From a virus, in IMG/VR virus record IMGVR_UViG_3300050821_003571, positions 1-42,742 of that record: 42,742 bases of DNA. One strand, 5' to 3'. Each line of letters starts with the position of its first letter. Position 1 is the stretch's first letter. The notes beneath the pieces were generated by a model. The model worked only from the letters and a program-made list of their open reading frames with translations. It had not been told where the DNA came from and made no database searches. Shown in pieces: positions 1 to 42,742 of this stretch. The position numbers were made by a program, and so were the translations under genes.

Positions 1-97
1 TGAGAGAGTAACCCACTTCTTATTCAACCACGTGACGCTCGACTTCGCAGCGGGAGCATCGAGCGGCCTAGCCAGCCGCGCTAGCTACGATTGCCGC
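1..97. repeat. Direct terminal repeat, left copy
   Basis: These 97 bases are identical to 42646-42742. One open frame continues across the joined ends without interruption, so the repeat marks circular closure of the assembly. An exact overlap of this length fits an assembler k-mer. The P22-like headful packaging genes also predict a circularly permuted genome rather than fixed terminal repeats. Confidence 0.95.
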
Positions 98-23265: not shown

Positions 23266-23736
23266 ATGAGAACTATCCAAAAAAACCGTGAACGTATTCG
23301 CGCTAGTTACAGAGAGTATACAGAAGCGCAGCGAGAGCGCTTGCGCAATAACGCGCGAAGGTATTCAAAAACATTGAAAGGCCGTCAGACTCGTGCGGCA
23401 TGGAAGAAATCGCATCCCGGCGCGATGAACGCATACAATAAAAAGTATTACGAGTCACACAAAAAGAGAGTTTCTGCGTATCGAAGAAAATGGTACGCGC
23501 AAGGATTTTCTCAATTGACTTACTTGCGTCGTCTTGAAGCAATTGCCGGAAGACCGAAACCAAGCGCTTGCGAAATATGTCACAAGAAAGCCAAGAAGAT
23601 TTGCTTTGAGCATTGCCACAAAACCGGAAAATTCCGTGGTTGGATTTGTAGTCGATGTAACTTTATTTTAGGGATAATTGAATCTCCTTCGTATCTCAAG
23701 CCGTTTGTTAAGTATCTGAAGAGAGCGAATGCTTAA
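23266..23736 (+). CDS. Endonuclease VII-type HNH endonuclease
   Basis: The 156-residue protein has a long basic helical N-terminus (RERIRASYREYTEAQRERLR), then CEICHKKAKKICFEHCHKTG, KFRGWICSRCNFILGIIES. The zinc Cys pairs (CEIC...CSRC) and the E-H-C-H-K-T-G metal-binding loop match the recombination endonuclease VII family (PF02945). The base composition is more A/T-rich than the neighbours. Such genes often behave as free-standing homing-type elements; a role in resolving branched DNA before packaging is the alternative. It overlaps the portal gene by 8 nt. Confidence 0.85.
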   Translation: MRTIQKNRERIRASYREYTEAQRERLRNNARRYSKTLKGRQTRAAWKKSHPGAMNAYNKKYYESHKKRVSAYRRKWYAQGFSQLTYLRRLEAIAGRPKPSACEICHKKAKKICFEHCHKTGKFRGWICSRCNFILGIIESPSYLKPFVKYLKRANA

Positions 23737-25963
23737 TCAAGACTCCAACTCGCCGCTGTTAAAAGAGATTCGTCAGAATTACACCGACTTCTACGAAGGC
23801 TGGCGTCCTATCCTCGAAGATGGCGACACGGACATGCGCTACGTCAGCGGCAATCCGTGGGACGAGAAAGAGCGCGAGTTCAGAGACAAGTACGACCGCC
23901 CGGTGATGACGTTCGATGAGCTTTCTCCGTACATCAATCAGCTTGTAAACGATCCGCGTCAGAATAAGCGCGCGATAAAAATCAATCCGCGCGGAGCGGG
24001 AGCGACGAGCGTCACTGCGCAGTTGCGCGAAGACAAGATGCGCGAGATTCAATACAACTCGCGCGCGCAGAGCGCGTTTACGACTGCGTTCGAGGGTGCG
24101 GCATCGAGAGGCTTTGGTTGGTATGGCGTCAATAGCAGGCTCGTAGCAAACGGCTTGACAGAAGAGCAGTACGACGAGCTAGTGAAAGAATCCCCCGAAA
24201 AACTCTTCGAGCAAGAGCTATACATCTATCGTATACCGAATCCAAACTCCGTGCTGCCGAATCCTGCTTTCAAAGAGCAAGATGCAAGTGATATGACGGA
24301 ATGCTTCGTCGAAGAGCGCATCCAACGCAGCGAGTTCAAGCGCCGCTGGAAAGGCGCGAAGTTCATCGACTGGCAGGGCGATTACGCGGAGCAAGCACCT
24401 GGCTGGCAAACGGAGAAAATCGTCCGCATCGCTGCGTACTATAAAGCAATCATCAAGCGTAAGAAACTGTATTTGCTCGATGGGCTGAAGAACAAAGAAG
24501 ATCGCGTTGCTTTATATAGCGACGAACTGCCGGAAGATGAAGAGAAATGGCTCGCACACGACGAGAACAAGAAGCGTATCCGCCGCGACAGGACGATAGA
24601 GACGCGCCGCATCAAGCAGTATTGGACGAACGGGCTGGAAATCCTTGAAGAGAGTGATGAGATTCCGATTCGCTGGATTCCGCTTGTTCTCGTCGCGGGC
24701 AAAGAAATCTGGGTCGATGACGGTAGCGGCCCGCAGCGCAAGCTGATGAGTCTGGTCCGTCTCGCGCGCGATCCGTTCATGGCGTACTGCTATATTCGCA
24801 CGCAAGAAGTCGAAGAAGCGGGAATGTCGCCGAAAGCTCCGTTTGTCGGTTATACGATGCAGTTCGAGACGGACCGTGATGCATGGGAGAACTTGAACAA
24901 AATTCCGCGAGCGTTTGTACAAGTCGATCCAGTAACGGACCCGACGGACCCGAACAAAGTGCTGCCGCTCCCGACGAGACCGCAATTCACGCCGAACTTT
25001 CAAACATACGAAGTCTTCGCGGAAGCGTGCAGGAGAGCAATACGAACGGCTTGCGGCGGAAGTGACCTACCGACAGCAGCACAGCGCATCAATGAGAAGT
25101 CCGGCGTCGCGCTGAAAGAAATCGAAGCGAACGAAGATCGCGGCACGTTTCACTTCATCGACAATTATAACTTCGCAATGGAGCACGCTGGCCGCATAGC
25201 CGACGCTTGGTTCCCGTACGTTTACGACACGAAGCGCGACATCGCAATCATGAAAGCTGATGGTGCTTTCAAAACGCTGACGATTAACGACGAAGAGTAT
25301 ACGGAGAAAGGACCGAACGGCGAAGCTGTCCAGCAGCACTATGATGCCGTGACGGGAGATCATGGCGTGACGGTATCGACGGGTAAAGACTTTGCCTCTC
25401 AGCGCGACGAAGTAAAAGATTTTATTCAGCTCGTAATTAGCGAGCTTCAAGCGCTCGCGCAAGTCTTACCTCCCGGAGCGGTTGCTAAAGTCATGGCGCT
25501 CGCTGTTCGCCTTGGCGATTATGGTCCGCTTGGCGCTGAGATTGCCGACACGATTGACCCGCCGGATGCGGACAAGCAAAAGCAGCAAGCGCTTCAGCAA
25601 GCGCAGCAAGAGGCTTTGCAGCAAAAGAAAGTCATCGTCGAGATGCAGCAGGAGCTTGAGAAGCTGAAGCTGGAGAAGGCCGGGAAAGTCATTCAAGGCG
25701 AGACGGAAAAGCAAATCGCTACGATCAACAATGACGTTAAAGTGCTCATCGCGGAAATCAGCACGAAGATGCAGCAGATGAGCGAGCGCAACGAAATGTT
25801 CATGGAGTACTGGAAAGAAACGCATGGCGCTGCTCACGAAGTAGCGATGCAGCAAGAGCAGCACGGGCACGAACACGAACTCGCTGACAAGCAAGCAGCT
25901 TTAGCGACAGCGCAGCAAGCGCAAGGAGCAAGCGATGGCAACGGAACCACTGGCGGTCAATAA
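23729..25963 (+). CDS. Portal protein, P22 gp1-like
   Basis: 744 residues, close to P22 gp1 (725). The N-terminus LLKEIRQNYTDFYEGWRPIL, then RPVMTFDELSPYINQLVNDP and RQNKRAIKINP, is typical of the P22-type portal family. The centre has PNPNSVLPNPAFKEQDASDM, and the C-terminus a long Gln/Lys-rich coiled coil (QQALQQAQQEALQQKKVIVE) like the barrel of P22 portal. It forms the dodecameric DNA channel at the head vertex. Followed with a 29-nt overlap by the scaffold gene, as in P22-like order. Confidence 0.92.
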   Translation: MLNQDSNSPLLKEIRQNYTDFYEGWRPILEDGDTDMRYVSGNPWDEKEREFRDKYDRPVMTFDELSPYINQLVNDPRQNKRAIKINPRGAGATSVTAQLREDKMREIQYNSRAQSAFTTAFEGAASRGFGWYGVNSRLVANGLTEEQYDELVKESPEKLFEQELYIYRIPNPNSVLPNPAFKEQDASDMTECFVEERIQRSEFKRRWKGAKFIDWQGDYAEQAPGWQTEKIVRIAAYYKAIIKRKKLYLLDGLKNKEDRVALYSDELPEDEEKWLAHDENKKRIRRDRTIETRRIKQYWTNGLEILEESDEIPIRWIPLVLVAGKEIWVDDGSGPQRKLMSLVRLARDPFMAYCYIRTQEVEEAGMSPKAPFVGYTMQFETDRDAWENLNKIPRAFVQVDPVTDPTDPNKVLPLPTRPQFTPNFQTYEVFAEACRRAIRTACGGSDLPTAAQRINEKSGVALKEIEANEDRGTFHFIDNYNFAMEHAGRIADAWFPYVYDTKRDIAIMKADGAFKTLTINDEEYTEKGPNGEAVQQHYDAVTGDHGVTVSTGKDFASQRDEVKDFIQLVISELQALAQVLPPGAVAKVMALAVRLGDYGPLGAEIADTIDPPDADKQKQQALQQAQQEALQQKKVIVEMQQELEKLKLEKAGKVIQGETEKQIATINNDVKVLIAEISTKMQQMSERNEMFMEYWKETHGAAHEVAMQQEQHGHEHELADKQAALATAQQAQGASDGNGTTGGQ

Positions 25964-27003: not shown

Positions 27004-28245
27004 ATGGCAGAAGGCCAATATGTATTTCCCGATTGGGTGGCCGAGGAAGCTCTCCGCTTGCTGATCAACATGCTCGAAGTCTGTCAGTATTTCAACACGC
27101 AGGATAACAAGGAATTCGAGCGTGAGTTTCCCGTTGGAGAAGTCATCCGCAAGAAACTTCCCCAGCGCTTCCTGATCCGCGACGGTCTGGGCTATTCTCC
27201 GCAACCGATCAACCGCATTAACACGACAGTTGCTTGCAATCAGATTTTCGGCGTGGACTTCGAGTTCGACGACTTCGAGCAAGCGCTTTTAATGGAGCGC
27301 TCGAAGGAAGAAATCTCCGAGCAGTATCTGAAGCCAGCAATGGAGCAGATTGCTCAGGAGATGGACACGCGCGCGGCGCTCTTCGCGTATCAAAACGCGA
27401 ACAACAGCGTCGGCGTGCTCGCTGTCGATCCGAACTCCGCGACGACGTTCATGCAAGCGAGGCAGCGTCTCAAGAACTTGGCCGGTGCGACTCGCGGCAG
27501 TGAAAACGCGATGATCGTTCCATCGAGCGTTTACACTGCGCTTGTCCCTGTTCTTCAAGCGCTGTTGAATCCTGAAAGCGAAATCAGCGAACAGTACAAG
27601 GAAGGCTCTCTCGGTCGTCTTTGGAACTTCGACTGGTATGAATCGGAATCGCTTTTCCGCCACACTGCTGGTACGTGGGCTGGAGCTGTGACGCTCACTG
27701 TCGCTTCGGCGGGCGGAACGCAGCTTCAGATCACGAACACAGCAGCCGATACGTTCAACGTCGGCGACCAAGTCGGCATTGCGAACGTTAATCTCGTCAA
27801 CCCCATGACGCGGCGCTTCGTCTCGCAAGTTCAGAAGACGTTCGTTGTTACTGCTCCGCTCGTCGGAACAGGAAGCGGCAACGATTTGCTGAACATTTCG
27901 CCAGCTATCTTCCTGCCCGGTTCGCAATATCAGAATGTCGATTCGACGCCCGCTGCTGGCGCTGCGTTGACGCTCTTTCCCGGCACGACAGCTCCGAACG
28001 GCAAGACGAGCGCTCAAGGCTTGTGGCTCAACAAAGACGCTTTCGCGATGGTGGGATTGAAGCTCCAATCGCCGAAAGCGACGGAGTTGACTTCGCAAGC
28101 GCGGGACAGAAAGACGGGCATCCCCGTGCGCTTCGTCAGGATGTACTCGCCGACGGAGAAGAAGATGACCAACAGCTGGGATACGTTGATCGGCTTCGGC
28201 CAATACTATGCAGACAGCTGCGCGGGGAGGATTCTCTGCGGTTAG
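27004..28245 (+). CDS. Major capsid protein, P22 gp5-like
   Basis: 413 residues (P22 coat 430). The sequence FPDWVAEEALRLLINMLEVC, then FEREFPVGEVIRKKLPQRFL, resembles the HK97-fold coat of the P22 group. An inserted beta-rich part (ASAGGTQLQITNTAADTFNV, GDQVGIANV) corresponds to the I-domain-like region. The end has GIPVRFVRMYSPTEKKMTNS. It forms the capsid shell. The 49-bp upstream spacer contains an agagagat ribosome-binding site. Confidence 0.9.
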   Translation: MAEGQYVFPDWVAEEALRLLINMLEVCQYFNTQDNKEFEREFPVGEVIRKKLPQRFLIRDGLGYSPQPINRINTTVACNQIFGVDFEFDDFEQALLMERSKEEISEQYLKPAMEQIAQEMDTRAALFAYQNANNSVGVLAVDPNSATTFMQARQRLKNLAGATRGSENAMIVPSSVYTALVPVLQALLNPESEISEQYKEGSLGRLWNFDWYESESLFRHTAGTWAGAVTLTVASAGGTQLQITNTAADTFNVGDQVGIANVNLVNPMTRRFVSQVQKTFVVTAPLVGTGSGNDLLNISPAIFLPGSQYQNVDSTPAAGAALTLFPGTTAPNGKTSAQGLWLNKDAFAMVGLKLQSPKATELTSQARDRKTGIPVRFVRMYSPTEKKMTNSWDTLIGFGQYYADSCAGRILCG

Positions 28246-28284: not shown

Positions 28285-29169
28285 ATGAAAAAGAACATGA
28301 AGACTTATTTCAAACTCGCAACACTCGCTCTTCTGTTCGCGCTTTGCAGCTTGCCTGCATCAGCGCAGCAGAACTTTCTGACGCAAACGACGCTCTCTGC
28401 CGCTGTTGCGGGCCAGTATCTCGGTCCCGGCTCGACGGGTAACGTTCCCGCACCGACACTGATCACCGTCGCATCGGCGACGGGCATCCTCGGAATCTCT
28501 CCGAACCTCGGCGTAACGGCTTCGCAGCCGACAGGGAATACGAATCTGTTCATTGACCGCGAGCAGATGCGTGTCACCGCCGTTAACGGCACGGCACTTA
28601 CTGTTGTTCGCGGCGTGAACGGAACAGTTGCAACTCCTCACGCCGTTGGTGCAATGGTTCTTGCCGGGCAATCGCGTTGGTTCTACGTGCAAGACCCTGG
28701 CGGGCTAGGCTCGCAAGGGCCTGGCGGTGCGCCAATTTCCAACGTGCCATGCATCCTAGCGAACGTCGTTGTTTCTCCGTGGGTCAATATCCGTACCGGC
28801 GCACAGTGGTATTGCAATCCTACGTCGCTTGTCTGGACGCCGGGATTCAATAATCCACTCCTGCCGCTTGGCGCATCGTTTTCGACAGTTGCGTCCGTTG
28901 CTGGAGCGCAACCGATTCCCGGTCCGGTATCGAAAATATCCGGTACGAACGCGATCACTTCGTTCACGTTTACCGGAAATGGAGACATCGGCTTGAACGG
29001 CGCAGCCACGGCGAACACGCAAGTAGGCGGCCAGTTTTGCATTATTCCAACTGGCGCTTATACGACTACGGCGACGAACAACATCGGCGCGGCGACGACT
29101 GCTGTCGTCGGAATCATCCAATGTTGGTATTGGAATGGTCCTGACGCAAAGTGGTATCCGACGCGCTAG
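28285..29169 (+). CDS. Structural-type protein with Sec signal peptide, candidate capsid decoration
   Basis: The 294-residue protein begins with a signal peptide: MKKNMKTYFK, a hydrophobic core and an ASA|Q cleavage site near residue 27. The next part, LFIDREQMRVTAVNGTALTV, then VRGVNGTVATPHAVGAMVL, has the E-x-M-x-V...R-G-x-x-G-T-x-x-x-x-H-x-x-G pattern of phage head decoration and structural proteins. The C-terminal half is beta-rich with cysteine pairs. It lies directly after the coat gene. A signal peptide on a protein in this place is unexpected; either export is real or the N-terminus is a mimic. Function therefore uncertain. Confidence 0.7.
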   Translation: MKKNMKTYFKLATLALLFALCSLPASAQQNFLTQTTLSAAVAGQYLGPGSTGNVPAPTLITVASATGILGISPNLGVTASQPTGNTNLFIDREQMRVTAVNGTALTVVRGVNGTVATPHAVGAMVLAGQSRWFYVQDPGGLGSQGPGGAPISNVPCILANVVVSPWVNIRTGAQWYCNPTSLVWTPGFNNPLLPLGASFSTVASVAGAQPIPGPVSKISGTNAITSFTFTGNGDIGLNGAATANTQVGGQFCIIPTGAYTTTATNNIGAATTAVVGIIQCWYWNGPDAKWYPTR

Positions 29170-31053: not shown

Positions 31054-32616
31054 ATGTCGAGATTTAATTTCTGTGATGGTTACAACACTCCTCAGAGCGT
31101 TTCCGCTGACGCCCAGGATATCGTGAATCTCTATCCCGAGGCTGTCGAAAGCGGACAAGGCGTCTCCGCGTTGACGCTCTACTCGACTCCCGGCCTTTCT
31201 CAGTTCAACAATCCGGGCGGCAATCAAGTTCGCGGCAACTTCACGATCACGACAGGACCGAGCGCCGGGAGGACGTTCAAAGTTGTTGATGCAACGCTCT
31301 ATGAGGAATTCGCTAACGGTACGACGAACGCGATAGGCAATGTCGGCAACGACGGCGGCCCTGTCGGTTTCGCCGCGTGTCCACAGCAATTAGCAATCGT
31401 CAGTGCAGGGAATCTCTACTCTTACCAGCTCGCGACACAAGTCTTGCCTCCTATTAATGCAGGGACGTTTACAGGACTTATTGCAGGCCCGTGGCAGCCT
31501 GCTTCCGTGACGGAAATCGCGTTCATCGATAGCGCTTTCTATTTGCTCGTCGCTTCGTCACAGACTGTTTACGCTTCGAATTCTTTCGACGCGACAGCTA
31601 CAGGCTGGAACGCGCTGCAAGTCAAAATCATCAACACGTTCGCTGACAACGTTATCGGCATGGGCGCAGATCATCGCTTCTTGTGGCTTTTCGGTGCGAA
31701 GCAGAGCGAAGTCGATTACGACGCTGGCGGGTTTCCGTTCCCACTCGCTCCGATGCCAAGCGGCTTTATCGAGCAGGGCGTTGCAGCTCCGAACGCGATT
31801 ACGGAACTCGACAATGCTTTCTTCCTTATCGGCGCGCGCAACGACATCGGTCAAGCTATCGCGTACCGCACGAACGGCTTCGCTTTCCAGCGTATCTCGA
31901 CGCACGCTGTCGAGACAGCGTGGCAATCGTACGCTAAGATTAGCGACGCTGTTTCGTTCGCGTATCAAGAGAACGGGCATACGTTTTGGATCGTGACTTT
32001 CCCGACCGCTCAAAAGACGTGGGGTTACGATGTAGCGACTGGCAAGTGGCACCGTCGCGGCTTCTGGAATCTTCGCATCGGAGACTATCAAGCAGCGCTG
32101 CCGATCTGTCACACGTTCAATTTCGGGAAGCATCTTGTTGGCGACCGTCAGAGCGGGCGGACGTATGTCATGTCGTCTCCCGTGCAAGCGGGAGGAGGAT
32201 GGAACTTCGTTACGGACAATGGAGCTCCGATTCGCCGCCTGCGCAGAGCGCCACACATTAACGTCGAGCATCAATGGCAGCGCTACAGCAACTTGGAGAT
32301 TTACGGCGAGACGGGCTTAGGGCCGGAACCTCCGCTGCTCGACGGAGCAGGCCAACCGCGCGACCCGCAGATTTTCTTGCGTATCTCGCGCGACGGCGGT
32401 CATACATGGGGACCGCAGCGCGTCGCGGGTTTCGGAAAAGCGGGAAAGTATATGCAGCGCGCGAACTTCAAGCGACTTGGCAGGGCGCGTGACTTCGTTC
32501 CTGAGATTACTTGCAGCGACCCAGTGCCATGGCGTTTCGTGGATGCCTATATCAATTCGAAGACGCAGCCTTCTCCGCGTAAGAGATTAGTCCACCAATA
32601 TGCGGAGGTCGCATAG
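31054..32616 (+). CDS. Packaged-DNA stabilisation protein, P22 gp10-like
   Basis: 520 residues (P22 gp10 472). SADAQDIVNLYPEAVESGQG at the start, a beta-propeller-like middle, and HAVETAWQSYAKISDAVSFA, then YQENGHTFWIVTFPTAQKTW and YDVATGKWHRRG, match the PF11134-type family (A-V-E-x-A-W...G-H-x-F...F-P-x-A-x-x-T-W-x-Y-D). It plugs the portal after packaging. A degenerate ribosome-binding site precedes it. Confidence 0.88.
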   Translation: MSRFNFCDGYNTPQSVSADAQDIVNLYPEAVESGQGVSALTLYSTPGLSQFNNPGGNQVRGNFTITTGPSAGRTFKVVDATLYEEFANGTTNAIGNVGNDGGPVGFAACPQQLAIVSAGNLYSYQLATQVLPPINAGTFTGLIAGPWQPASVTEIAFIDSAFYLLVASSQTVYASNSFDATATGWNALQVKIINTFADNVIGMGADHRFLWLFGAKQSEVDYDAGGFPFPLAPMPSGFIEQGVAAPNAITELDNAFFLIGARNDIGQAIAYRTNGFAFQRISTHAVETAWQSYAKISDAVSFAYQENGHTFWIVTFPTAQKTWGYDVATGKWHRRGFWNLRIGDYQAALPICHTFNFGKHLVGDRQSGRTYVMSSPVQAGGGWNFVTDNGAPIRRLRRAPHINVEHQWQRYSNLEIYGETGLGPEPPLLDGAGQPRDPQIFLRISRDGGHTWGPQRVAGFGKAGKYMQRANFKRLGRARDFVPEITCSDPVPWRFVDAYINSKTQPSPRKRLVHQYAEVA

Positions 32617-33039: not shown

Positions 33040-33475
33040 AGAGTGGCGAACGGCGCTCGCAGAGCTTCGCCCATTATTCGCAAGGCTTTGGGATGATGTC
33101 GCAATCGACAAGGAACGCTTTATAGCAGAGTGTGATGAAGAGAAGTATGCAAAGCTCGACGAGCAGAAAATCCTTCATCTCGTCACGGCGCGAGAAGAAG
33201 CGAAGCTCGCTGGCTTCTTTCTTTGCTTCGTCTGGCCTAACGCGCATTATCTTGGTGCTGGCGATATGGCTTTCACGGACATGTACTATGTTCTTCCGGC
33301 GTATCGTAAGGCGAATGTCGGCATTCGTCTCTTTGCGTTTATGGAAGAAACGCTTCGGGAAAGAGGCGTCGTGAAGTTCTATACGTCGCACAAGCTGCAT
33401 AGGGATCGCAGCGCGATGATGAAGCTACTTGGTTTCAAGGCTACGGACATCGTGTATTCGAAAGTGATTGGATGA
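33023..33475 (+). CDS. GNAT-family acetyl/acyltransferase
   Basis: The 150-residue protein contains KLAGFFLCFVWPNAHYLGAG, then DMAFTDMYYVLPAYRKANVG and IRLFAFMEETLRERGV, which match the GNAT core: strand 4 ending in the splayed YVLPAYR and the acyl-CoA loop at 94-101. The loop reads R-K-A-N-V-G-I, a departure from the usual R/Q-x-x-G-x-G/A, so CoA binding may be unusual or the donor could be the ACP next to it. ATGA-coupled to the ejection protein gene. Target unknown. Confidence 0.85.
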   Translation: MRFQREEWRTALAELRPLFARLWDDVAIDKERFIAECDEEKYAKLDEQKILHLVTAREEAKLAGFFLCFVWPNAHYLGAGDMAFTDMYYVLPAYRKANVGIRLFAFMEETLRERGVVKFYTSHKLHRDRSAMMKLLGFKATDIVYSKVIG

Positions 33476-34518
33476 GCACTGTCGCTATCGGGACGATTGC
33501 TGCTGCGGGAATCGGCGCGGGAGCTTCGCTCGGCGCTGCTGGCATACAAGCTGGCGCGGCAAAGTCCGCTGCACAACTACAATTCGAAGAGCAGCAGCAA
33601 GCGCTCGCGTTTCAGAAGCAGGAATGGGAACAGCAGCAGCAAAATATGGCCCCGTGGATTCGAGCGGGGCAAGGCGCTGTTGGCACGCTCGGCGGTTTGC
33701 TCGGCCAGGGACTTCAAGGTCAAGGCCCGCTCGCTCCGTGGACGGGGCAGTTTCAAGCTCCGACTTTAGCGCAAGCACAGCAAGAGCCTGGCTATCAATT
33801 CGCTTTAGGGCAGGGCACGAAAGCGCTGACGAACTCCGCCGCTGCGAGCGGGAACTTGCTTACGGGGAACACGGGAGAAGCGCTCCAACAGTACGGTCAG
33901 CAGTTCGGCGAGCAGAATTATCAGAACGTCTACAACCGCGCGATGCAGCAGTACGAACTTGGCTATAATCAGTTCGAGACGAATCAATCGAATCTTTTTA
34001 ATCGCTACGCATCGCTCGCGGGACTAGGACAAACGAGCGCTGCGCAACTTGGCAATCAAGGCCAAGCTGCGGCAGGAAATGTTGCGAATATCTCACTGAC
34101 TGGTGGAGCGCAGATCGGTCAGCAATGGAACAACGCAGCAGCAGCGCAAGCGAGCGGCTATGTCGGAGCAGGAAACGCTATCGGCGGAGCGTTTGGGAAT
34201 TTGAGCCAGTATGCGATGTTGCAGCAGTTGCTAGGCCAAGGTGGAGGCGGAGGCACTGGAGGCGGAGGCACTGGAGGCGGAGGCACTGGAGGCGGAAGTT
34301 GCTGTTGGGTAGCTACTGAACTTTATGGCAGCAGAGAGGCTCCTGAAACAATAGCGATTTTCGATTGGTTGAATCGCACTCCGTATATGCGGCTGTTCTT
34401 GAATAATTATCAACTCTTTGGTCCTGTATGGGCAGAAGCTATTAAGAAAAATAGATACTTCCGCATCGAAACAAAAAAGCTTTTCGATGGATTTTTGGAG
34501 AAAGCACTGGCGAATTAA
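33472..34518 (+). CDS. Ejection protein, P22 gp7-like, with Gly linker and C-terminal module
   Basis: The 348-residue protein has an N-terminal Ala/Gly-rich hydrophobic helix (IGTIAAAGIGAGASLGAAGI), then a Gln-rich region with EPGYQFALGQGTKALTNSAA, typical of gp7-like DNA transfer proteins. A run of GGGGT repeats (DNA 34243-34296) links to a C-terminal domain, CCWVATELYGSREAPETIAI, that recurs at the end of various phage proteins. It is packaged in the head and ejected with the DNA into the envelope. Position and order (7, 20, 16) fit P22. Confidence 0.8.
   Translation: MSTVAIGTIAAAGIGAGASLGAAGIQAGAAKSAAQLQFEEQQQALAFQKQEWEQQQQNMAPWIRAGQGAVGTLGGLLGQGLQGQGPLAPWTGQFQAPTLAQAQQEPGYQFALGQGTKALTNSAAASGNLLTGNTGEALQQYGQQFGEQNYQNVYNRAMQQYELGYNQFETNQSNLFNRYASLAGLGQTSAAQLGNQGQAAAGNVANISLTGGAQIGQQWNNAAAAQASGYVGAGNAIGGAFGNLSQYAMLQQLLGQGGGGGTGGGGTGGGGTGGGSCCWVATELYGSREAPETIAIFDWLNRTPYMRLFLNNYQLFGPVWAEAIKKNRYFRIETKKLFDGFLEKALAN
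34243..34296. repeat. 15-bp tandem repeat (3.6 copies) coding a Gly linker
   Basis: ggaggcggaggcact repeats at 34243, 34258 and 34273, with a partial fourth copy. It encodes GGGGT repeats between the two halves of the ejection protein and can vary in copy number by slippage. Confidence 0.95.
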
Positions 34519-36003
34519 ATGGCAACGATCCCACTTCCCGCGCTTCACGTCAATACGGAGCAGCCTTCTCCGCTCGCGCTTTACGCGCAGTTGCAGCAGA
34601 TACGGAACGCGCAGAGTCAGAATCAGACGCAGCAACTTCAGCAGACAGCGCTCTCGCAGGAGAATCAGCAGCGCGCGTTGCAACTTCAAGATGCGCAGAC
34701 GCTGCGAAGTCTCGCACCGAATCATGTCACGAAAGACGCGGATGGCAATGTGACGGGCTTCGACACGCAAGGACTCATCAAGGAAGCAGCATCGAAAGGC
34801 GTCAATCCCGCGACGCTAAATCAGATGCAGAATCAATACGCGGAATCCGTGAAGAACCTGGCGGCGGCTTCCGAAGCGACTCGCAATAACGAGATAGCGA
34901 AGAATAAAGCAGCGTACGAAGTTCTTGAAGGCGTCAGGAGCGCCGATCCTGCGCAACGCGCGAGCGTGCTCCAGCAAGCGCTTCCGAATCTTCAAAAGTT
35001 GGGAGTCGATACGACGAAGCTAGCGCAGCCGGGACTGCCGCTCGATGATAAGTCGCTTGATTCGTTCGAAGCGGGACTTGGAATGCATCAGCAATCACTT
35101 ACGGATGCGAAGACGCAAGCGGAGACGGACAAAGCAAAGCAGGATGCGATAAAAGCGATTCAAGAAACTTCCGCGTCGAAAGCGACAGAAGAGCATACAA
35201 GGATGCTCACGGCGCAAGGTGGCCCTGTCGATCAGCGCGTGATGGCGGATTGGCTTGCGAAGAATCCCGGTAAGAGTCCGGCGGATTTTGCAAAGTGGCA
35301 CGCTTCGCTCAACCCGATGGCGCAAATCATGGCGCAGTTTGGGACTGGCGGCGCGAAAGCACCGCTATCCGATACAGTGATCGACGCGCTTGCGGCTCCT
35401 GGCGCGAAACTAAAACTTGCTGACGTAATTCCAATGCGCGCGCCGCTCGCGGTTAAGCAAGCGGCAGTAAATCAAATCTTGGAGAAATACCCGAACTACT
35501 CGACTGCAGACTACGATATCGAGAAAGGCGTGATGAAGTCTGCAACATCCGGCGCAATCGCAATGAACTTGACGAACTTCAACACAGCGATAGAGCACGC
35601 GAAGCAGTTGCAGGAAGATGCGAATGCGCTCGACAACGCGAACCTACAGACGTATAACAAGATCGGTAATCGCTTGAACGTGGAACTTGGAAAAGACGCC
35701 GTAACGAACTTCAACGTCGTGAAGAACGCTCTCGCTGGGGAAATGTCAAAAGTGTTCAAAGGCGGGCAAGCGACGGACGCGGAGATTAAGGCAGTTGAGC
35801 AGCCGTTCAATGCCGCGAATTCGCCAGAGCAGTTGAAAGGTGCTATTGCAAGCGCTATCCGATTGATGAACTCTAAGCGCGACGCGCTAAAGCAGCAAGT
35901 TGAGCAGGGGCGGCAAGGAAAAGCGAATTTCGGAAATGAAGCTCCTACTGGTAAGATTCCTTCTCCTGCTGAATGGCTGGAGCAGCAAAAGAAGAAACCC
36001 TGA
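34519..36003 (+). CDS. Ejection protein, P22 gp20-like
   Basis: 494 residues (P22 gp20 471). Gln/Ala-rich and helical with long coiled-coil stretches (QNQTQQLQQTALSQENQQRA, SVLQQALPNLQKLGVD, AIEHAKQLQEDANALDNANL). No enzyme motif. Position between the gp7-like and gp16-like genes supports a DNA-transfer role in the periplasm. Sequence alone would not identify it; order does. Confidence 0.72.
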   Translation: MATIPLPALHVNTEQPSPLALYAQLQQIRNAQSQNQTQQLQQTALSQENQQRALQLQDAQTLRSLAPNHVTKDADGNVTGFDTQGLIKEAASKGVNPATLNQMQNQYAESVKNLAAASEATRNNEIAKNKAAYEVLEGVRSADPAQRASVLQQALPNLQKLGVDTTKLAQPGLPLDDKSLDSFEAGLGMHQQSLTDAKTQAETDKAKQDAIKAIQETSASKATEEHTRMLTAQGGPVDQRVMADWLAKNPGKSPADFAKWHASLNPMAQIMAQFGTGGAKAPLSDTVIDALAAPGAKLKLADVIPMRAPLAVKQAAVNQILEKYPNYSTADYDIEKGVMKSATSGAIAMNLTNFNTAIEHAKQLQEDANALDNANLQTYNKIGNRLNVELGKDAVTNFNVVKNALAGEMSKVFKGGQATDAEIKAVEQPFNAANSPEQLKGAIASAIRLMNSKRDALKQQVEQGRQGKANFGNEAPTGKIPSPAEWLEQQKKKP

Positions 36004-38027
36004 TGGCCGACACACCACAAGTCGACTACGACGCGCTGAGCAAGGACGCGACGTTTCGCGCGATGCCGCTTCAGCGGCAGCGTGACTATTTGTCGGCGGT
36101 CGACAAAGACTTCGCGGGGATGGACCCGGAGACGCAGAAAGGTTACATCGCGCACATTACGGGAGCGAACGTTAGTAGCCCGATGGCGCAAGCGTTGACG
36201 AACGTCCCAGAAGGACAGATTCGCTTGCGTAGCGACTTGAATCTCTCTGCGACGGCTCCGCAGAGTGACGTTATCAACGATTATAACCGCGAGTCGAGTA
36301 AAGTCATAGGGACGGCGGCGGGCACGATGGCGACTGGCGGAATTCTTCCCGGTGCTGGATTATTGCGGCTCGGTGGTCGCGCCCTGGCTACGGGAGCAGG
36401 AGCGGGTACGGGCGCGTTTATCGGGGGCGCTACGCCAACAGAAGCAGTTCAAACAGGAGCGGCGGCGACTGTCTTACAGCCAGTAGCGGAAGTGACCGGG
36501 GCCGCATTGTCTGCTGCCGGTAAGAAACTCCTCGTTCCCGCCGCCGAGAAGATGGGCGGCTGGTGGGACAACGTGACAGGCTACACGCGAGCGCTCGAAG
36601 AAGCGAAGAACGCGAACTTAGCACGCTATCTTGCGAGTGAACAGAAGGGTGCTCAAGCTGTCGCGGAAGGTCAAGCGAACGTCGCTGCCGTGAAAGCCGC
36701 GCAGCCGCAAGGGCAGCTTGGTAACTGGAGCGACTTGAATCAGTCTATCGGGACGACTGCATCGAAGTCCATTCGCATCGGCAGGACTCCAGGTGAAACA
36801 ATCTCGCTTACTTCCGTAGAGCGTTATGGAAATCCCGGCGAAACTGAAGGATATTTCTTTTCGCCGAAGGGCGAGGGATTGCCAGAATATGGCTCCGTTA
36901 AAACGGAGGCGAAGCTTGACACTAGTAAATTTTACAAAGGGGTTGGTTCCCAAGAATATCTTGAATCAATTGGAAAATTTGATGATCCTATTCCTCCCCG
37001 CGTTCAGGCAGAGGCGCAAAAAGCAGTTGATGAAGCAAGGGCTGCTTGGCCGAAAGATACTGCCGATATGCCAAGAAATCCTAAGACTCTCAGGGAGCTT
37101 TCGGAGTATGAAGGATTAACAGACCCTTCGGCTATGTTTAACGCCAAGCAGTCTGTTGCTGCAAAATATCTTCAAGCAAAAGGCTTCAAAGGAGCAGAGT
37201 GGAGCTACGAAGATGATTTGTCTCCTCATCAATACCAGGCTTTTGACAAATCAGTTATAAATCCAAAGAATACTGGCGGAATTGAGAATGCTTACGGCAT
37301 TCCTGGCCGTGGTCTTGAGGCGGAAGGCTTTACGACGGAAGCGCTGCAAAAAATGACGCCGCCTGAGCAAGCCGCAGCTATCGGTCCGCGCTTCCAAGCG
37401 GCGGGGAAAGCAGTACAAGCGACGGCGGATAAGGCGACAGAGCAAGGCATAACGTTAAATGTCGGGCAATCCGTTTTCGATGTGATAAAAAACAGAGTGA
37501 AAGACCCCGGCTTGCAAGATAAGGCGATGGAAATTATTAAGAGTCATCTACAAGAACTTTCTATTGGCAGGGGCCAACTACTGAACGATACCGTTACTCC
37601 TACAGAAGCTCTCGCGCTCCGCCAAGCGCTGAAGAACGACGCGAATTTCGGACCGAACGCTTCAGTTGACTCCCTGAAGGGAGTGGGCCGCGCGATTTAT
37701 AACGCTGTTTCGAGCGATCTTCACGACGCCGTGCCCGGAATGAAAGCTGTCGACATGCATTATGGAGACTTGGCGCAAGCCGTAGACACCGTTCGCCAGC
37801 AGACGGGAAAGTATATGGCGGGGAAGTGGACGCCGCCGAAGACTGCTGTTCAAAAAGCAGAAGAAGCAGTGCCGGAATTGCCGAAGTCGTCTCCGTACAC
37901 GCCACTGCCGGAGAGCAAGCCGTTTACTTCTGATATGCTGAAGAAGTTGGGGATAGGCGGCGCAATCGTTGGCGGCGCTTTCGGCGGTTATGCAGGCGCA
38001 AAACGATTGTTAGAAGCAGCGCCCTGA
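36003..38027 (+). CDS. Ejection protein, P22 gp16-like, with inserted ADP-ribosyltransferase-like segment
   Basis: The 674-residue protein starts at ATG 36003 (TGATG overlap). The N-terminus YDALSKDATFRAMPLQRQRD is followed by a hydrophobic glycine-rich part (GTAAGTMATGGILPGAGLLR) suited to membrane insertion. Residues about 260-435 form a different module, less GC-rich in DNA: GYFFSPKGEGLPEYGSVKTE, then a later AKYLQAKGFKGAEWSYED and AFDKSVINPKNTGGIENAYG. This resembles the ART/polyvalent-protein pattern (F-F-S/T...Y-G...G-F/Y-x-G...F-x-x-x-x-I). The last part is helical with a membrane-like Gly stretch. It would be ejected into the cell; the module could modify a host target. Confidence 0.7.
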   Translation: MADTPQVDYDALSKDATFRAMPLQRQRDYLSAVDKDFAGMDPETQKGYIAHITGANVSSPMAQALTNVPEGQIRLRSDLNLSATAPQSDVINDYNRESSKVIGTAAGTMATGGILPGAGLLRLGGRALATGAGAGTGAFIGGATPTEAVQTGAAATVLQPVAEVTGAALSAAGKKLLVPAAEKMGGWWDNVTGYTRALEEAKNANLARYLASEQKGAQAVAEGQANVAAVKAAQPQGQLGNWSDLNQSIGTTASKSIRIGRTPGETISLTSVERYGNPGETEGYFFSPKGEGLPEYGSVKTEAKLDTSKFYKGVGSQEYLESIGKFDDPIPPRVQAEAQKAVDEARAAWPKDTADMPRNPKTLRELSEYEGLTDPSAMFNAKQSVAAKYLQAKGFKGAEWSYEDDLSPHQYQAFDKSVINPKNTGGIENAYGIPGRGLEAEGFTTEALQKMTPPEQAAAIGPRFQAAGKAVQATADKATEQGITLNVGQSVFDVIKNRVKDPGLQDKAMEIIKSHLQELSIGRGQLLNDTVTPTEALALRQALKNDANFGPNASVDSLKGVGRAIYNAVSSDLHDAVPGMKAVDMHYGDLAQAVDTVRQQTGKYMAGKWTPPKTAVQKAEEAVPELPKSSPYTPLPESKPFTSDMLKKLGIGGAIVGGAFGGYAGAKRLLEAAP

Positions 38028-38050: not shown

Positions 38051-39526
38051 ATGAAGAACAGAATGAAAATAGCGAGGACGTTGAGAGCGCTCTTCACGCT
38101 CGCTACTATAGCACTTTGCGCGTCGAGCGTGCGCGCTCAAGTCGCCGTCGCTCCTCTCCAGTTAGTCCGCCAACAGTTTCTCTCTTCTACTGGCGTCCCT
38201 CTCGCAAGCGCGTGCATCGACTTCTTCGCGACGGGCACATCGAATCGCCAAGCAATCTACGCAGACTCTGGAGGCGTGAACCAGCTTCCGAATCCTCTTA
38301 CGCTCGATGCTGCGGGAGAAGCGTCCGTTTGGATGACAAACACTGGCTACGATATTCAAGCGAATACAGGCGTGAACAACACGCTTTGCAGCGTCAGTGA
38401 AGGTTCGCAGTTGTGGAAAGAAATCAACAAGAATCCATTCAGCATCATCAACGGCGGCTCGAACTACATCGTTGCGAGCGGGACGAGCGATCCTGCTGGC
38501 ACGGCGGGAGAATTTGCTTTCCGTAGCGACTTGCCATGCCTACGCTTCTTTATCTCGACTTGGGATTGCGTTATGGAAGTCACGCTCGCGCAATCGCCGA
38601 CGAACAAGACTATCGACATCAGCGCGAACACGCTGAAAAACTCGACGAACACGGCAGGCCATTATCCGCGAAATAACGGGACGCAATATGTCGATTCGAC
38701 GATTTCCGCGAGCGACATTTCAACGAGCTTCGCTAACGCGAGCGTCACGGGAACGGTGTTAAATGAACCAGCTAAACTCACCGGCGCTCCTTCGACGGCT
38801 GTAGTCGTGGGGATTACTGATACTGCTGGAATCATTGGAATCGTGATCAGCGGGGCCGGTACGACTGGAAGTGCGCTAATTCAAACGAGCGGCATAGCGA
38901 ATTGTGTATTTGATTCTCCTGTTACGGCTGGTGATTACGTTCAAGTTAGCACTACGGTTTCCGGCAACTGTCACGATATCGGAATCGCTCCGCCAGCTTA
39001 TCCGGTTAATGTTTCTCCTCAGAACGCGCAAATCTTGGGGCGCGTCCTCGCTTCCGGCGTTGCTGGAACTTATCCCATGCAACTGTTCCCCCCAGAGGAT
39101 AAAGGTATTTCTTCCGTAACGGCTGTCACCGCCGTCAACTTGACGGCTCAAGCAGCGAACATTGGAACGACGAACATCGTCACGCCTACTGCAAACGGAT
39201 TTTACCGCATCGGTTGTTATCTCGTAGTGACTCAAGCGGCTACGACAAGTTCCACGCTGCCTAGTTGCGTATTGTTCTATACGGATGCGGACACGTCTAT
39301 CGGAGGAAGCGCTACACTGACTTCCACAAGCACGGCTAATACAGTGGGAACATCGAGCGCCACGAACGGAGCGGCTCCAAATCCAGTCAGCGCGACGACC
39401 GTGGGAAGCGCTGTATTTTTTGCGAAAACCGGAGTAGCTATCTCATACGGCACGTCGAATTACTCGTCTGTTGGCGGCACGCCGATGCAGTACGCACTTC
39501 ATCTTCGATTGGAAGGACCGTTCTAA
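38051..39526 (+). CDS. Tail fibre-type protein with Sec signal peptide
   Basis: The 491-residue protein starts with a signal peptide: MKNRMKIARTLRALF, a hydrophobic core and VRA|Q near residue 29. Next comes LVRQQFLSSTGVPLASACID, then FFATGTSNRQAIYADSGGVN, which matches the start domain of many phage tail fibre and spike proteins (G-x-P-L-A-x-G...F-x-x-G-T...Y-x-D-x-x...N-P-x-x-L-D-A-x-G). The remainder is Ser/Thr/Gly-rich and beta-structured, as in fibres. It follows the ejection genes, where P22 has its tailspike. Export signal plus tail-like domain is unusual. Confidence 0.72.
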   Translation: MKNRMKIARTLRALFTLATIALCASSVRAQVAVAPLQLVRQQFLSSTGVPLASACIDFFATGTSNRQAIYADSGGVNQLPNPLTLDAAGEASVWMTNTGYDIQANTGVNNTLCSVSEGSQLWKEINKNPFSIINGGSNYIVASGTSDPAGTAGEFAFRSDLPCLRFFISTWDCVMEVTLAQSPTNKTIDISANTLKNSTNTAGHYPRNNGTQYVDSTISASDISTSFANASVTGTVLNEPAKLTGAPSTAVVVGITDTAGIIGIVISGAGTTGSALIQTSGIANCVFDSPVTAGDYVQVSTTVSGNCHDIGIAPPAYPVNVSPQNAQILGRVLASGVAGTYPMQLFPPEDKGISSVTAVTAVNLTAQAANIGTTNIVTPTANGFYRIGCYLVVTQAATTSSTLPSCVLFYTDADTSIGGSATLTSTSTANTVGTSSATNGAAPNPVSATTVGSAVFFAKTGVAISYGTSNYSSVGGTPMQYALHLRLEGPF

Positions 39527-39832
39527 ATGAAACTTTGTCTCTTACTTTTGACTCTTTGCACGATGAAAGATGGTCATCGGCATTTCCAGCCTCTTGCGGC
39601 GGCGCACTTCGTTGCGACGAGCTTTGATTATGCGACGACGGCGCGCTGGCAGTATGAAAAGAATCCAGCGTTTCGGCCATTTGCCGGGACTCCGCCGCGC
39701 TTTAGGCGAATGATCGTATTTGGCGGATTGGAGAATATCGCGCCGGAAATACTACCGAAGAGATTCAGGAAATGGACGAGAATTTCATTGATCAGTACGC
39801 ATATCGTTGCGGGAGGTTATAACTTGCGATGA
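39527..39832 (+). CDS. Small hydrophobic protein, 101 aa, possibly related to the terminal-join protein
   Basis: The ATG follows the previous stop directly. The N-terminus MKLCLLLLTLCTMKDGHRHF is short and hydrophobic; then AHFVATSFDYATTARWQYEK, NPAFRPF and a C-terminal RKWTRISLISTHIVAGGYNL. The D-x-A-T-T...N-P...R-P-F pattern and final Y-N-L recall a bacterial membrane family of unknown function and partly match the 42545-310 protein. It may be a small envelope protein. ATGA-coupled to the next gene. Confidence 0.55.
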   Translation: MKLCLLLLTLCTMKDGHRHFQPLAAAHFVATSFDYATTARWQYEKNPAFRPFAGTPPRFRRMIVFGGLENIAPEILPKRFRKWTRISLISTHIVAGGYNLR

Positions 39833-40908
39833 AGCGATTAGCACAACTCGCTTTTCTTTTCTTGCTGTTCGCTGCGGGCGCAGGAGCGCCGCTCTACGCG
39901 CAAGGCTATCGCTTTGACAATCAAGTAGCGCAGGAGCTTCTAACCTTTCAGATCAACGGTACGACAAACGTTCTTGTTGTTCCTTCGACGCCGCAAATCG
40001 CATTCTGTAATTTCCCCGCGAACGCCGTTCCATGTACAAACAAGGCAACGACATACACATCCGTCACGCTAGGAACTCCATGCTCGACGAGCACGCAGAT
40101 TACGCTTACTGGTAGCAGCTCATGTGTCGCATCTCCAGACGCGCAAGCGAACTGGGGTGTGTGGATTCCGCAAGGACAGTATGCTTATACGATCACGACA
40201 TCATCTGCGAACTTTGGTCCGTTCGTCGTAAACTTTGGCGTTCCTAGCGGGACAGCGTTGACGCTCGGGACTATCACATCGTCGAGCGCGAATCCAGCGG
40301 CGTCCGGTTATTTTCGTTTAGCAAACACGGATTTCATAAAATGGCGAAATGCTGCTAATAATGGCGATTGCCTGCTCGCGGATAATGGCGCAGCGCAAGG
40401 CAACATACCTGCTGATTTAATCGTATCTCAGTGCGGGTATACAGCACCGTATTATGTAAGTAACAGTTCAAATGCTGTTGCTCTAAGCGGCGTTTTCAGG
40501 ATGAACAGCACCGATGCTTTATCTTGGCGCAATAACGCGAACTCCGCCGATATCACGATCTCGAAGAATGCGAGCGATCAATTCGTTTTCGGCGCTCCAT
40601 TACTGACTCCTACGCTGACTGGCGTGATAAACGGTACAGGCTTACAGCTTTTCACGGTGACGCCCGGAGCGGGGACGTGTCCGACAGTAGCATCTATCGG
40701 GGCGCTTTGCACAACGGGGAACATCACACTTCCTGTCGCTTACTCGGACACGAATTACCGACTTTCCTGTACCGTACTCTCTCCGACGAACGTCGCTATC
40801 GTCGAGACTTATACGAAGTCAAACACAACGTTCACTGTAACGATAGCGGCGCTAACGGCGGCGGCGGCGAATTTTGGTTCATTCGATTGCATGGCGGTGC
40901 ATAATTGA
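39829..40908 (+). CDS. Secreted/adsorption-type protein with signal peptide, 359 aa
   Basis: MKRLAQLAFLFLLFAAGAGA with a LYA|Q site after residue 24 is a clear signal peptide. The mature part is beta-rich, Asn/Thr/Ser-rich, with several Cys (PQIAFCNFPANAVPCTNKAT, TLGTPCSTSTQITL). The pattern WGVWIPQGQYAYTITTSSAN, then FGPFVVNFG, recurs in adsorption-type proteins of soil phages as I recall. The C-terminal part resembles a small virion head-group (SDTNYRLSCTVLSPTNVAIV). TTGA-coupled to the next gene. Confidence 0.65.
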   Translation: MKRLAQLAFLFLLFAAGAGAPLYAQGYRFDNQVAQELLTFQINGTTNVLVVPSTPQIAFCNFPANAVPCTNKATTYTSVTLGTPCSTSTQITLTGSSSCVASPDAQANWGVWIPQGQYAYTITTSSANFGPFVVNFGVPSGTALTLGTITSSSANPAASGYFRLANTDFIKWRNAANNGDCLLADNGAAQGNIPADLIVSQCGYTAPYYVSNSSNAVALSGVFRMNSTDALSWRNNANSADITISKNASDQFVFGAPLLTPTLTGVINGTGLQLFTVTPGAGTCPTVASIGALCTTGNITLPVAYSDTNYRLSCTVLSPTNVAIVETYTKSNTTFTVTIAALTAAAANFGSFDCMAVHN

Positions 40909-42542
40909 GAAAACTACTGTTCATCATCTTGCTTCTTATCCCTCGTGGGTTGTTTGCCCAAGCAACTTCCTCGAACCCTCTCGGCGGCAACTTGACGGTC
41001 CAAGACGCAGGAACGTGCTTGACGACGGGGAGCTTTTTGTGGCAGAAACTTCCGTCGAACGCAGCAACTACGACAGTTAATCTCGCAGGTACGTTCTCCG
41101 GCACGCTTACGATTCGCCTTTCGAACAATGGCGGCGGATCGTGGACGACGAACAACACAACGACGAGCGCGGGGACGACTAGTATCAGCACGAACGGCTT
41201 CACGGACATCTGCGCGGACGTGACGACGTTCACTAGCGGTTCGTTTGCAGTGACGATCACGACAGGGCTAAACACTGGCCCTGTCGGGCCTGCTGGACCT
41301 CCCGGCTCCGGCTCCGGCATCAGCTCGGTGCCTGGCAATTTGGCATTGCTCAATACCACAATAGATGCTTTCAATCGGGTTGGTGCTCTAGGAGCGAACT
41401 GGACGACTTATCTCAACGGGTTCACATTGACATCAGGCTTGGCGTCCGCTACTACGGCATCGCAATATAACCTCGCGGCTTATACGGGCGTGACAACCGT
41501 CCCCACGCAAACTGTCAAATGTGTTGTCGGAACGCTGAATGGCACTACCACCGACCCTTTCTGCGCGGTAAGAATCAGCGGCACGCCGACAACATCCGTT
41601 AATTTTTATGCCTGCGAACTAAACACGACAACTCTCACGCTCGTAAAAGTCACCGGAGCGTCGAACGCCAGCACGGGAACGACAACAGTTTTTGGAGGAG
41701 CTGGTGTTTCTGTCAGCGGGGCGGTTGGACAAGTCATCACATTAAGTATCGTAGGCAATACCCTGACATGCACTCTAAACAGCCTCACGAATTCGCTCTT
41801 GCAAGCGGAAGATACGACCAGCCCACTGACTACTGGATTTCCCGGCATCGGCTCACTTAGCAGCCCTGCGGCGCTTTCAACTTTCACCCTGATTAACCCC
41901 ACCGTTCCTGGCGGAGCAGTCCAAAACATAGTCTTTGACGGAGATTCCATCATCGCTGCGAATGGGCAAGGCTCTACCGGAACAGACCCCGCAACGAGTT
42001 ACCTCTTCCTACAAAAAACTCCGGTCTACGTGACGAACCTCGGTGAAAGCGGCAAGTGTCTCGGAATCGCCTGCAACGCTGCTACGGTTGGCACTATGCC
42101 GTCCATGCTCACAACTGGAACTAGCGTTGTTGATACTCTGTGTGTGCCGGGCATAACAAATATTGTAGTTATTTTTGGCGGGTCAAACGACTTGGCTCAA
42201 GCCTCGCCACGGACTCCTGCTCAGGTCAATGCTGATTTGACTACTTATGTTGCAGCGCGTCATGCGAATGTGGGATGCCCTTGGAAAGTTGTGAGTGTTC
42301 CAGTGTTGTCCAGAGGCTGCACAACAGCGCCCACGATTGACCCTAACATCCAAGTTTACGATGCGCTGGTGTACGCAAATTCTGCGGGAGCGGATGCGGT
42401 AGTCCAACTTCCATTTTCAGTGACTGGCGCAGCCGCATCCTGTAGTACCGCGCTTTGGAACGCAGACGTAATTCACCCATTAGAAATCACCCATATCGAC
42501 GTTCTAGCGCGAGCGTTCAGCGCTACGCTGAGTAAATTCTAA
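40905..42542 (+). CDS. Adsorption protein with signal peptide, collagen-like hinge and SGNH hydrolase domain
   Basis: The protein is 545 residues from TTG 40905, inside the upstream stop. The signal peptide MRKLLFIILLLIPRGLFAQ is cleaved near LFA|Q. A short GPVGPAGPPGSGSG hinge lies at about 125-138. Middle: a beta-sandwich-like part. The C-terminal SGNH/GDSL esterase-type domain has block I FDGDSII (about 345), block III IFGGSNDL (about 423) and the catalytic Asp-His pair DVIHP (about 521). It could deacylate surface polysaccharide at the cell. SGNH domains are known in phage tailspikes; the signal peptide is the odd element. Confidence 0.8.
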   Translation: MRKLLFIILLLIPRGLFAQATSSNPLGGNLTVQDAGTCLTTGSFLWQKLPSNAATTTVNLAGTFSGTLTIRLSNNGGGSWTTNNTTTSAGTTSISTNGFTDICADVTTFTSGSFAVTITTGLNTGPVGPAGPPGSGSGISSVPGNLALLNTTIDAFNRVGALGANWTTYLNGFTLTSGLASATTASQYNLAAYTGVTTVPTQTVKCVVGTLNGTTTDPFCAVRISGTPTTSVNFYACELNTTTLTLVKVTGASNASTGTTTVFGGAGVSVSGAVGQVITLSIVGNTLTCTLNSLTNSLLQAEDTTSPLTTGFPGIGSLSSPAALSTFTLINPTVPGGAVQNIVFDGDSIIAANGQGSTGTDPATSYLFLQKTPVYVTNLGESGKCLGIACNAATVGTMPSMLTTGTSVVDTLCVPGITNIVVIFGGSNDLAQASPRTPAQVNADLTTYVAARHANVGCPWKVVSVPVLSRGCTTAPTIDPNIQVYDALVYANSAGADAVVQLPFSVTGAAASCSTALWNADVIHPLEITHIDVLARAFSATLSKF

Positions 42543-42544
42543 CC

Positions 42545-42742
42545 ATGCCCCTCCGCCCCACACTCGCGCTGCTGGCCCTTCTCCTGCTATTAGGCTCCGC
42601 CCAAGCCTCCCCGAAGCGCGTCATGCGGGCGGTGGCGGAGCACCCTGAGAGAGTAACCCACTTCTTATTCAACCACGTGACGCTCGACTTCGCAGCGGGA
42701 GCATCGAGCGGCCTAGCCAGCCGCGCTAGCTACGATTGCCGC
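42545..42742 (+). CDS. Secreted small protein, 5' portion of the gene spanning the contig ends
   Basis: ATG 42545 is 2 nt after the SGNH gene stop. MPLRPTLALLALLLLLGSAQ is a signal peptide, with cleavage at AQA|S near residue 21. Codon 34 ends at base 1 of the window and the frame continues to 310. The join gives a 136-residue secreted protein of unknown function. It is the last member of the signal-peptide gene cluster and leads into the lysis genes. Confidence 0.85.
   Translation, partial: MPLRPTLALLALLLLLGSAQASPKRVMRAVAEHPERVTHFLFNHVTLDFAAGASSGLASRASYDCR
42646..42742. repeat. Direct terminal repeat, right copy
   Basis: Identical to bases 1-97; see the left copy. Remove one copy for a unique circular length of 42,645 bp. 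Confidence 0.95.

Follow-up and report, generated by a model that had tools for sequence, protein, structure and literature searches.

Tailed phage assembly is understood to be wholly cytoplasmic. The question raised by the late region of one P22-like phage is why proteins in its adsorption region should begin with signal peptides. The locus lies in IMG/VR virus record IMGVR_UViG_3300050821_003571 (positions 1 to 42,742; this whole stretch of 42,742 nucleotides is referred to as the window), which was assigned to a P22-like podophage based upon its portal, coat, gp10-like head closure and gp7-like ejection protein matches. Genes are named here by their start positions. A first-pass annotation had described Sec-type leaders on genes 38051, 39829, 40905 and 42545 and on gene 28285 after the coat gene, and had offered three explanations: that the products are secreted effectors or host-surface proteins, that adsorption parts are exported and attached late, or that the leader serves a membrane step in assembly. 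The second was found to fit best, and the third is disfavoured. For this group of P22-like soil phages of Acidobacteria, we regard the whole explanation by export and subsequent attachment as moderately probable.

Leaders in the window and in related phages

Leaders were called using our own scorer of n-, h- and c-regions, not SignalP. All five were found where they had been reported, at 28285 (MKKNMKTYFKLATLALLFALCSLPASA, then QQ), 38051 (MKNRMKIARTLRALFTLATIALCASSVRA, then QV), 39829 (MKRLAQLAFLFLLFAAGAGAPLYA, then QG), 40905 (MRKLLFIILLLIPRGLFA from a TTG start, then QA) and 42545 (MPLRPTLALLALLLLLGSAQA, then SP), with scores of 4.7 to 6.0. The reported glutamine at +1 was likewise present in 28285, 38051, 39829 and 40905, that is, in four of the five. 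By the same scorer, the leaders have the features of substrates of Sec and signal peptidase I (a basic n-region, a hydrophobic h-region and small residues at −3 and −1). With the cut-off set at 4.7, the scorer made one false call among 160 core genes (cytoplasmic or virion) from the same phage group and none among 1239 internal pseudo-starts. When residues 2–45 were permuted in 2000 trials per leader, the real score was reached by 0 shuffles for 28285, 137 for 38051, 1 for 39829, 0 for 40905 and 3 for 42545, making 38051 the weakest leader of the five.

Conservation is stronger support for the leaders than these scores. Gene calls were made over 26 related records, and a Sec-type leader was kept in four gene families over about 20 P22-like relatives whose portals are down to 25% identical. 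Nearly all homologues of 28285, 38051, 39829 and 40905 retain it, a point that the first-pass annotation had left for checking. Counts in relatives are low estimates, as the scorer missed obvious leaders (in the 38051 family those of G012, G014 and G006, and others elsewhere). The nearest relative found (L002; gp10 80% identical, same gene order as the window) has homologues of all four genes, each with a different leader and all ending in an A-Q junction. The 38051 leader is also retained in L006 and further phages, and that of 40905 is present in relatives besides L002. Close relatives of 38051 are 34% identical in the leader versus 91% in the next 100 residues, and those of 40905 are 37% versus 88% identical; the junction of a small residue with glutamine is retained while the leaders diverge freely. 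As far as sequence comparison can tell, this is signal-peptide-style evolution, in which function is conserved and sequence is not.

Chance or composition as a source of the leaders was ruled out by this conservation together with the shuffle, internal-start and core-gene controls. Leaders that are annotation artefacts or relics, with translation starting downstream or with a leader that no longer works, would agree with the weak shuffle result for 38051 and with the TTG start of 40905. Such an origin is very improbable given that four families conserve the leader over large divergence, that a ribosome-binding site with at least four matching bases precedes about half of the leader starts, and that internal starts close to the mature N-terminus and preceded by a ribosome-binding site were seen in only 2 of the 21 members in the 39829 family and nowhere in the other three families. 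A misannotated start, or dual-start products of which one is exported and one cytoplasmic, is unsupported for the same reason, as such internal starts are almost nil.

The leaders are also concentrated in one phage group. Eight P22-like control phages (P22 itself, six that infect Proteobacteria and one activated-sludge phage) were processed through the same pipeline, and among genes of at least 200 amino acids on the portal strand, 67 of 311 scored as leader-bearing in the acidobacterial group; for the controls the count was 2 of 126 (Fisher 4.6e-9). In the slot 3' of the ejection genes, the long genes were leader-bearing in 15 of the 16 genomes compared, some of them by eye after start correction. 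The gp10-like family served as an internal control, and no credible leader was found among its 11 homologues. Two further relatives (G019 and G021) have leader-bearing 39829 relatives, but the Pfam P22 portal model found nothing in them (G019 has a weak PHROG portal match); the spike module may thus occur with more than one type of portal.

Predicted exported proteins, cysteines and hosts

Gene 38051 (38051..39526, + strand) encodes a 491-amino acid protein with a Sec leader at residues 1–29, an A-Q cleavage site, a head-binding domain at about residues 30–130 and a variable C-terminal part. It occupies the tailspike slot of P22, 3' of the ejection genes. A profile of the mature domain, built using leader-bearing members only, matched the Pan3 tail spike (9vyg, 3e-8) and the Pam1 chain 7eeq_A, named Tailspike head-binding domain (6.1e-8). 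By these profile matches, the predicted mature N-terminus of 38051 is a tailspike head-binding domain. The tailspikes of PBR31, P26218, BA3, VvAW1 and X14 carry the same type of domain, are leaderless and start at about the mature N-terminus. Leaderless proteins of another phage contig (L003 9863–10375 and 10377–11831) share the C-terminal module of 38051; judging by this sharing, modules are exchanged between predicted exported and non-exported fibres.

The leaderless tailspikes bear on a different reading of the leader, in which the hydrophobic N-terminus stays uncleaved, holds the spike to the inner membrane or the particle and acts in a membrane step of assembly or entry. Hydrophobic leaders on several proteins of one operon would suit such an anchor. 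Set against it are a small residue-glutamine cleavage site that is kept while the leader diverges, relatives that begin at about the cleavage point, and a cysteine pattern that falls within the mature part. An anchor is thus quite improbable, and the membrane-step option of the first-pass annotation loses ground with it: the leader sequence is unconserved, and cleavage would restore the N-terminus of leaderless tailspikes.

A second spike-like protein, predicted to be exported, is encoded by 39829 (39829..40908, +; 359 amino acids), with a leader at 1–24, an N-domain of about 110 residues holding four cysteines, and a variable C-terminal part. Its relatives range from 297 to 2134 amino acids. 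The N-domain was located in 23 loci, with a leader in 23 of 23; the stretch NAVPCTN, including one of the four cysteines, was part of the search pattern and is invariant by construction, and the other three cysteines, the leader and the small residue-glutamine junction lay outside the pattern. An AlphaFold2 model of the N-domain (mean predicted local distance difference test score 81) had predicted viral tail spikes among its best matches in BFVD (E about 1e-2), which is suggestive of a tailspike-like fold in the model. No convincing sequence match to tailspike head-binding domains was found for this N-domain, and no relative of it among INPHARED phage records. A bacterial source was sought in bacterial genome contigs using one exact pattern, in a search without a positive control, and none was found; a profile found no relative in 199 genomes of the Acidicapsa phylum, also without a positive control, so this absence is weak evidence. 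The C-terminal parts of relatives of 39829 yielded neither an intramolecular chaperone nor a pectate-lyase family.

The third spike-like protein with predicted export, 40905 (40905..42542, +; 545 amino acids, TTG start), has a leader at 1–18 and a conserved N-domain at about 19–123. Its C-terminal domain (about 343–525) resembles an SGNH/GDSL hydrolase (Lipase_GDSL_2, E 2e-6). The SGNH label that it had been given holds as a resemblance and falls short of the Pfam cut-off (28.9 versus 32.9 bits). Directly 3' of the coat gene, 28285 (28285..29169, +; 294 amino acids) encodes a predicted exported protein with a leader at 1–27 and a phage virion-type beta domain at about 28–132. Most related phages have a leader-bearing homologue in this position. 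An AlphaFold2 model of its N-domain matched the JBD30 baseplate (Z 9.9), the VP1 capsid (Z 9.1) and the GP4 portal-tail (Z 8.2), and a profile matched minor tail protein 8vjh over a short stretch (7.9e-7). Pfam and PHROGs scans returned almost nothing for the 28285, 38051, 39829 and 40905 proteins. The fifth leader belongs to 42545 (42545..42742, +), the N-terminal part of a small protein that continues at 98–310 across the 97-bp terminal repeat. The gene is interrupted solely where the record ends, and its full product is about 136 amino acids. Its earlier placement within the adsorption set was not upheld, as nothing links it to tail proteins; the product, encoded close to the lysis genes, is probably a small and separate protein of the envelope.

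Cysteines accompany the leaders. The 38051 domain has a single pair (C55 and C113), and in the alignment of this family exactly two cysteines were counted in 19 of 19 leader-bearing head-binding domains versus 0 of 9 leaderless ones (Fisher 1.4e-7, which is not to be taken literally as the rows are related, mostly split by host and not independent). The pair usually lies at GGC and a small inserted loop, and sometimes elsewhere. The 28285 protein has C156, C177, C252 and C280; in its family, 14 leader-bearing members have four to six cysteines 3' of the leader, and the leaderless members of G017 and G018 have none there. These two lie inside the phage group and lose both features together. Every aligned 39829 domain has four cysteines. 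Conserved even numbers that go with the leader lead us to predict disulfides in the exported proteins, and the link argues for domains that fold in an oxidising compartment, as it would be hard to explain otherwise. The Acidicapsa genome has VKOR and DsbA-like genes.

Hosts of the window phage were inferred from prophage relatives. A portal-alignment scan of bacterial genomes returned seven relatives, five of them in Acidobacteria, Acidobacteriaceae, Acidiferrales or Acidicapsa records and the remaining two in Methylobacter and Armatimonadetes. In the prophage of the cultured Acidicapsa dinghuensis 4GSKX, leaders are present on a 28285 homologue 3' of the coat gene, on a 706-amino acid tailspike that has the head-binding domain of 38051, and on a 982-amino acid protein 3' of the ejection genes. 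No leader was found on the fibre-like genes of the Methylobacter prophage, and none was called in the Acidiferrales prophage, where gene calls are poor and the stretch ends before the tailspike slot.

The glutamine at +1 needs no phage-specific explanation because it is common in acidobacterial host leaders. In a sample from the Acidicapsa genome, it occupied the predicted +1 position in 13 of 45 leaders versus 57 of 105 phage leaders, and [A/G/S]Q occurred near the site in 19 of the 45; a glutaminyl cyclase gene is also present (PF05096, 6e-94). The residue is largely a host habit, frequent without being found in most leaders, and is akin to but weaker than the Q-rule of Bacteroidetes (PMC5837995).

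Proposed export and joining of spikes at lysis

Export and cleavage of the leader-bearing proteins are highly probable on the strength of the leaders. Under the explanation that we prefer, the tailspikes 38051, 39829 and 40905 and the accessory virion protein 28285 would be made with host-style Sec signal peptides. All four would cross the inner membrane, where signal peptidase I would expose an N-terminal glutamine, possibly cyclised to pyroglutamate, and they would fold with disulfide bonds in the periplasm. Heads and the short tail body would meanwhile be assembled and filled in the cytoplasm, spikeless. Once holin and endolysin had opened the envelope, the waiting spikes would bind the tail via the N-terminal head-binding domain and complete the particle.

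That adsorption parts are exported and attached late is the option best matched by the head-binding domain, the tailspike slot, the scarcity of other candidates and the cysteine pattern. The leader-bearing proteins are nearly the sole receptor-binding candidates in these genomes, so the exported proteins would have to reach the particle, since these phages would otherwise be without tail receptor-binding proteins; their presence in the virion is considered fairly likely. Spikes and particles would meet at lysis because the particle is expected to be cytoplasmic and the endolysin is leaderless, and attachment at or after lysis is somewhat favoured. Israel et al. (1967, as cited in PMC3741392, reference 14) joined heads and tail parts of P22 in vitro, which makes late spike addition plausible. 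The lineage-wide form of the proposal, with Sec pre-export, periplasmic oxidation and capture by spikeless virions at lysis, is given a slightly better than even chance.

Several observations pull in the other direction. The 38051 homologue of G018 is leaderless, though its 39829 homologue keeps a leader, and the 28285 homologues of G017 and G018 are leaderless too, so export is not obligatory. In G016 (C1:1723–2745; L075), a leaderless 340-amino acid protein beside the coat gene has a beta-helix-like YYLDPVNGLDTNNG motif; it is possibly a non-exported fibre and would be the main exception to the pattern. Leader and cysteine pair may both follow host lineage. The best PDB matches of the 39829 model are the Pan3 and Pam1 tailspikes, and these are only middling (Z 6.2 and 5.6, root-mean-square deviation above 6). 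In their spike region, relatives encode additional long proteins with leaders (L071 6766–10689, L078 118–3384, L064 16181–18157), and these have HYDIN/ASH immunoglobulin-like and chitobiase C-terminal-type domains. They were perhaps taken over from secreted host proteins, and given these domains some exported genes may not encode spikes.

These extra genes also speak for the main rival reading, of secreted proteins that derive from tailspikes and act outside the infected cell as non-virion proteins. Such products could block or destroy receptors (for superinfection exclusion, or to keep progeny off debris), degrade exopolysaccharide or decorate the host surface. The hydrolase-like domain of 40905 would suit this role, and surface modification was suggested for leader-bearing genes in a study of Porphyromonas gingivalis phages (PMC10367356). 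We judge it unlikely as an account of the spikes: the conserved part of 38051 is a head-binding domain with no evident use off the particle, the genes belong to the late virion operon and occupy the tailspike slot, and almost every genome is without another receptor-binding candidate in that slot. The effector or surface-protein role that the first-pass annotation had listed may still apply, especially to the extra HYDIN/ASH genes of relatives.

Genome context, known systems and meaning

The first 97 bases of the window (1..97, unstranded) are identical to its last 97 (42646–42742), and the window is therefore a complete viral record with a terminal direct repeat. Its gene order was compared with that of P22, and both have the order of portal, scaffold, coat, gp4, gp10, ejection proteins and tailspike. 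All of the following are on the + strand: a P22-type portal protein (23729..25963; PF16510, 6.8e-100), a P22-type coat protein (27004..28245; PF11651, 3.3e-19), the leaderless gp10-like head closure protein (31054..32616; phrog_578, 2e-81), a leaderless gp7-like DNA ejection protein (33472..34518; phrog_598, 1.4e-29) and, directly 5' of the exported spikes, a leaderless protein considered gp16-like by position and conservation (35973..38027). A glucosaminidase-type endolysin candidate (1605..2099, +; PF01832, 5.3e-18) is probably released via a holin, since no leader was called on it.

Directly 3' of the endolysin, a 181-amino acid protein (2108–2653) has a lipoprotein-type leader (LGAC) and could be an outer-membrane spanin or a partner in lysis. 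The lysis region also encodes a stand-alone PAS-domain protein (1109–1504), an odd site for a sensor domain. Early genes at 3779–4648 and 7323–7853 match the gp34-like and gp33-like families of cyanophage Pam3 (PF23977, PF23984). Within the late virion operon (32836–33475), an acyl-carrier-like protein (67 amino acids, DSLE motif) is followed by a GNAT acetyltransferase, and the same pair adjoins the leader-bearing tailspike of the Acidicapsa prophage (L113 20850–21487); it may acylate a virion or ejection protein.

Filamentous phage pIII and pVIII are virion coat proteins with cleavable signal peptides that are finished outside the cytoplasm. They differ from the window spikes in that assembly takes place at the membrane during extrusion, and the phage is neither tailed nor released by lysis. 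The P22-like tailspikes of Pam1 (PDB 7eeq), Pan3 (9vyg) and PBR31 (PMC10975493) have, by profile, an N-terminal domain homologous to that of 38051, and share with the window spikes their position 3' of the ejection genes and a variable C-terminal receptor or enzyme part. In these tailspikes, however, the domain comes first and there is no signal peptide, PBR31 and four others tested are without the cysteine pair, and for tailspikes of this kind both synthesis and attachment are assumed to be cytoplasmic, unlike what is proposed here. In PBR31, the gene 3' of the leaderless tailspike, annotated as a putative structural protein, has a leader-like N-terminus (MKKLIALFSLFCTSA), and the N-terminus of the SGNH esterase gp40 reported for that Xanthomonas phage (PMC10975493) is likewise leader-like (L119 24674–25483 and 26930–27577); phages of hosts other than Acidobacteria may therefore also have accessory proteins that are exported. 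Late phage proteins also use the host Sec pathway in Lys44, the endolysin of Oenococcus phage fOg44, in SAR endolysins and in the T4 antiholin RI (PMC6116005), but these act on the envelope and are not adsorption parts of the virion. Q-rule genes of Porphyromonas gingivalis phages (PMC10367356) likewise have a host-adapted leader exposing an N-terminal glutamine; they differ in that their function is unassigned, they were not linked to tailspikes there, and the host belongs to Bacteroidota. No report of Sec leaders on tailspikes or other host-recognition parts of tailed phages was found in the open-access literature (subscription papers were outside the search).

For annotation, a signal peptide should not count against a virion role. 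The cultured lysogen Acidicapsa dinghuensis 4GSKX makes a direct test possible. If the proposal is true, virion completion would be a two-compartment process in which infected cells hold non-adsorbing particles and lysis arms them. Spikes of one phage could then arm the heads of another within a cell (phenotypic mixing), and phages would gain the use of disulfide-stabilised receptor-binding proteins.

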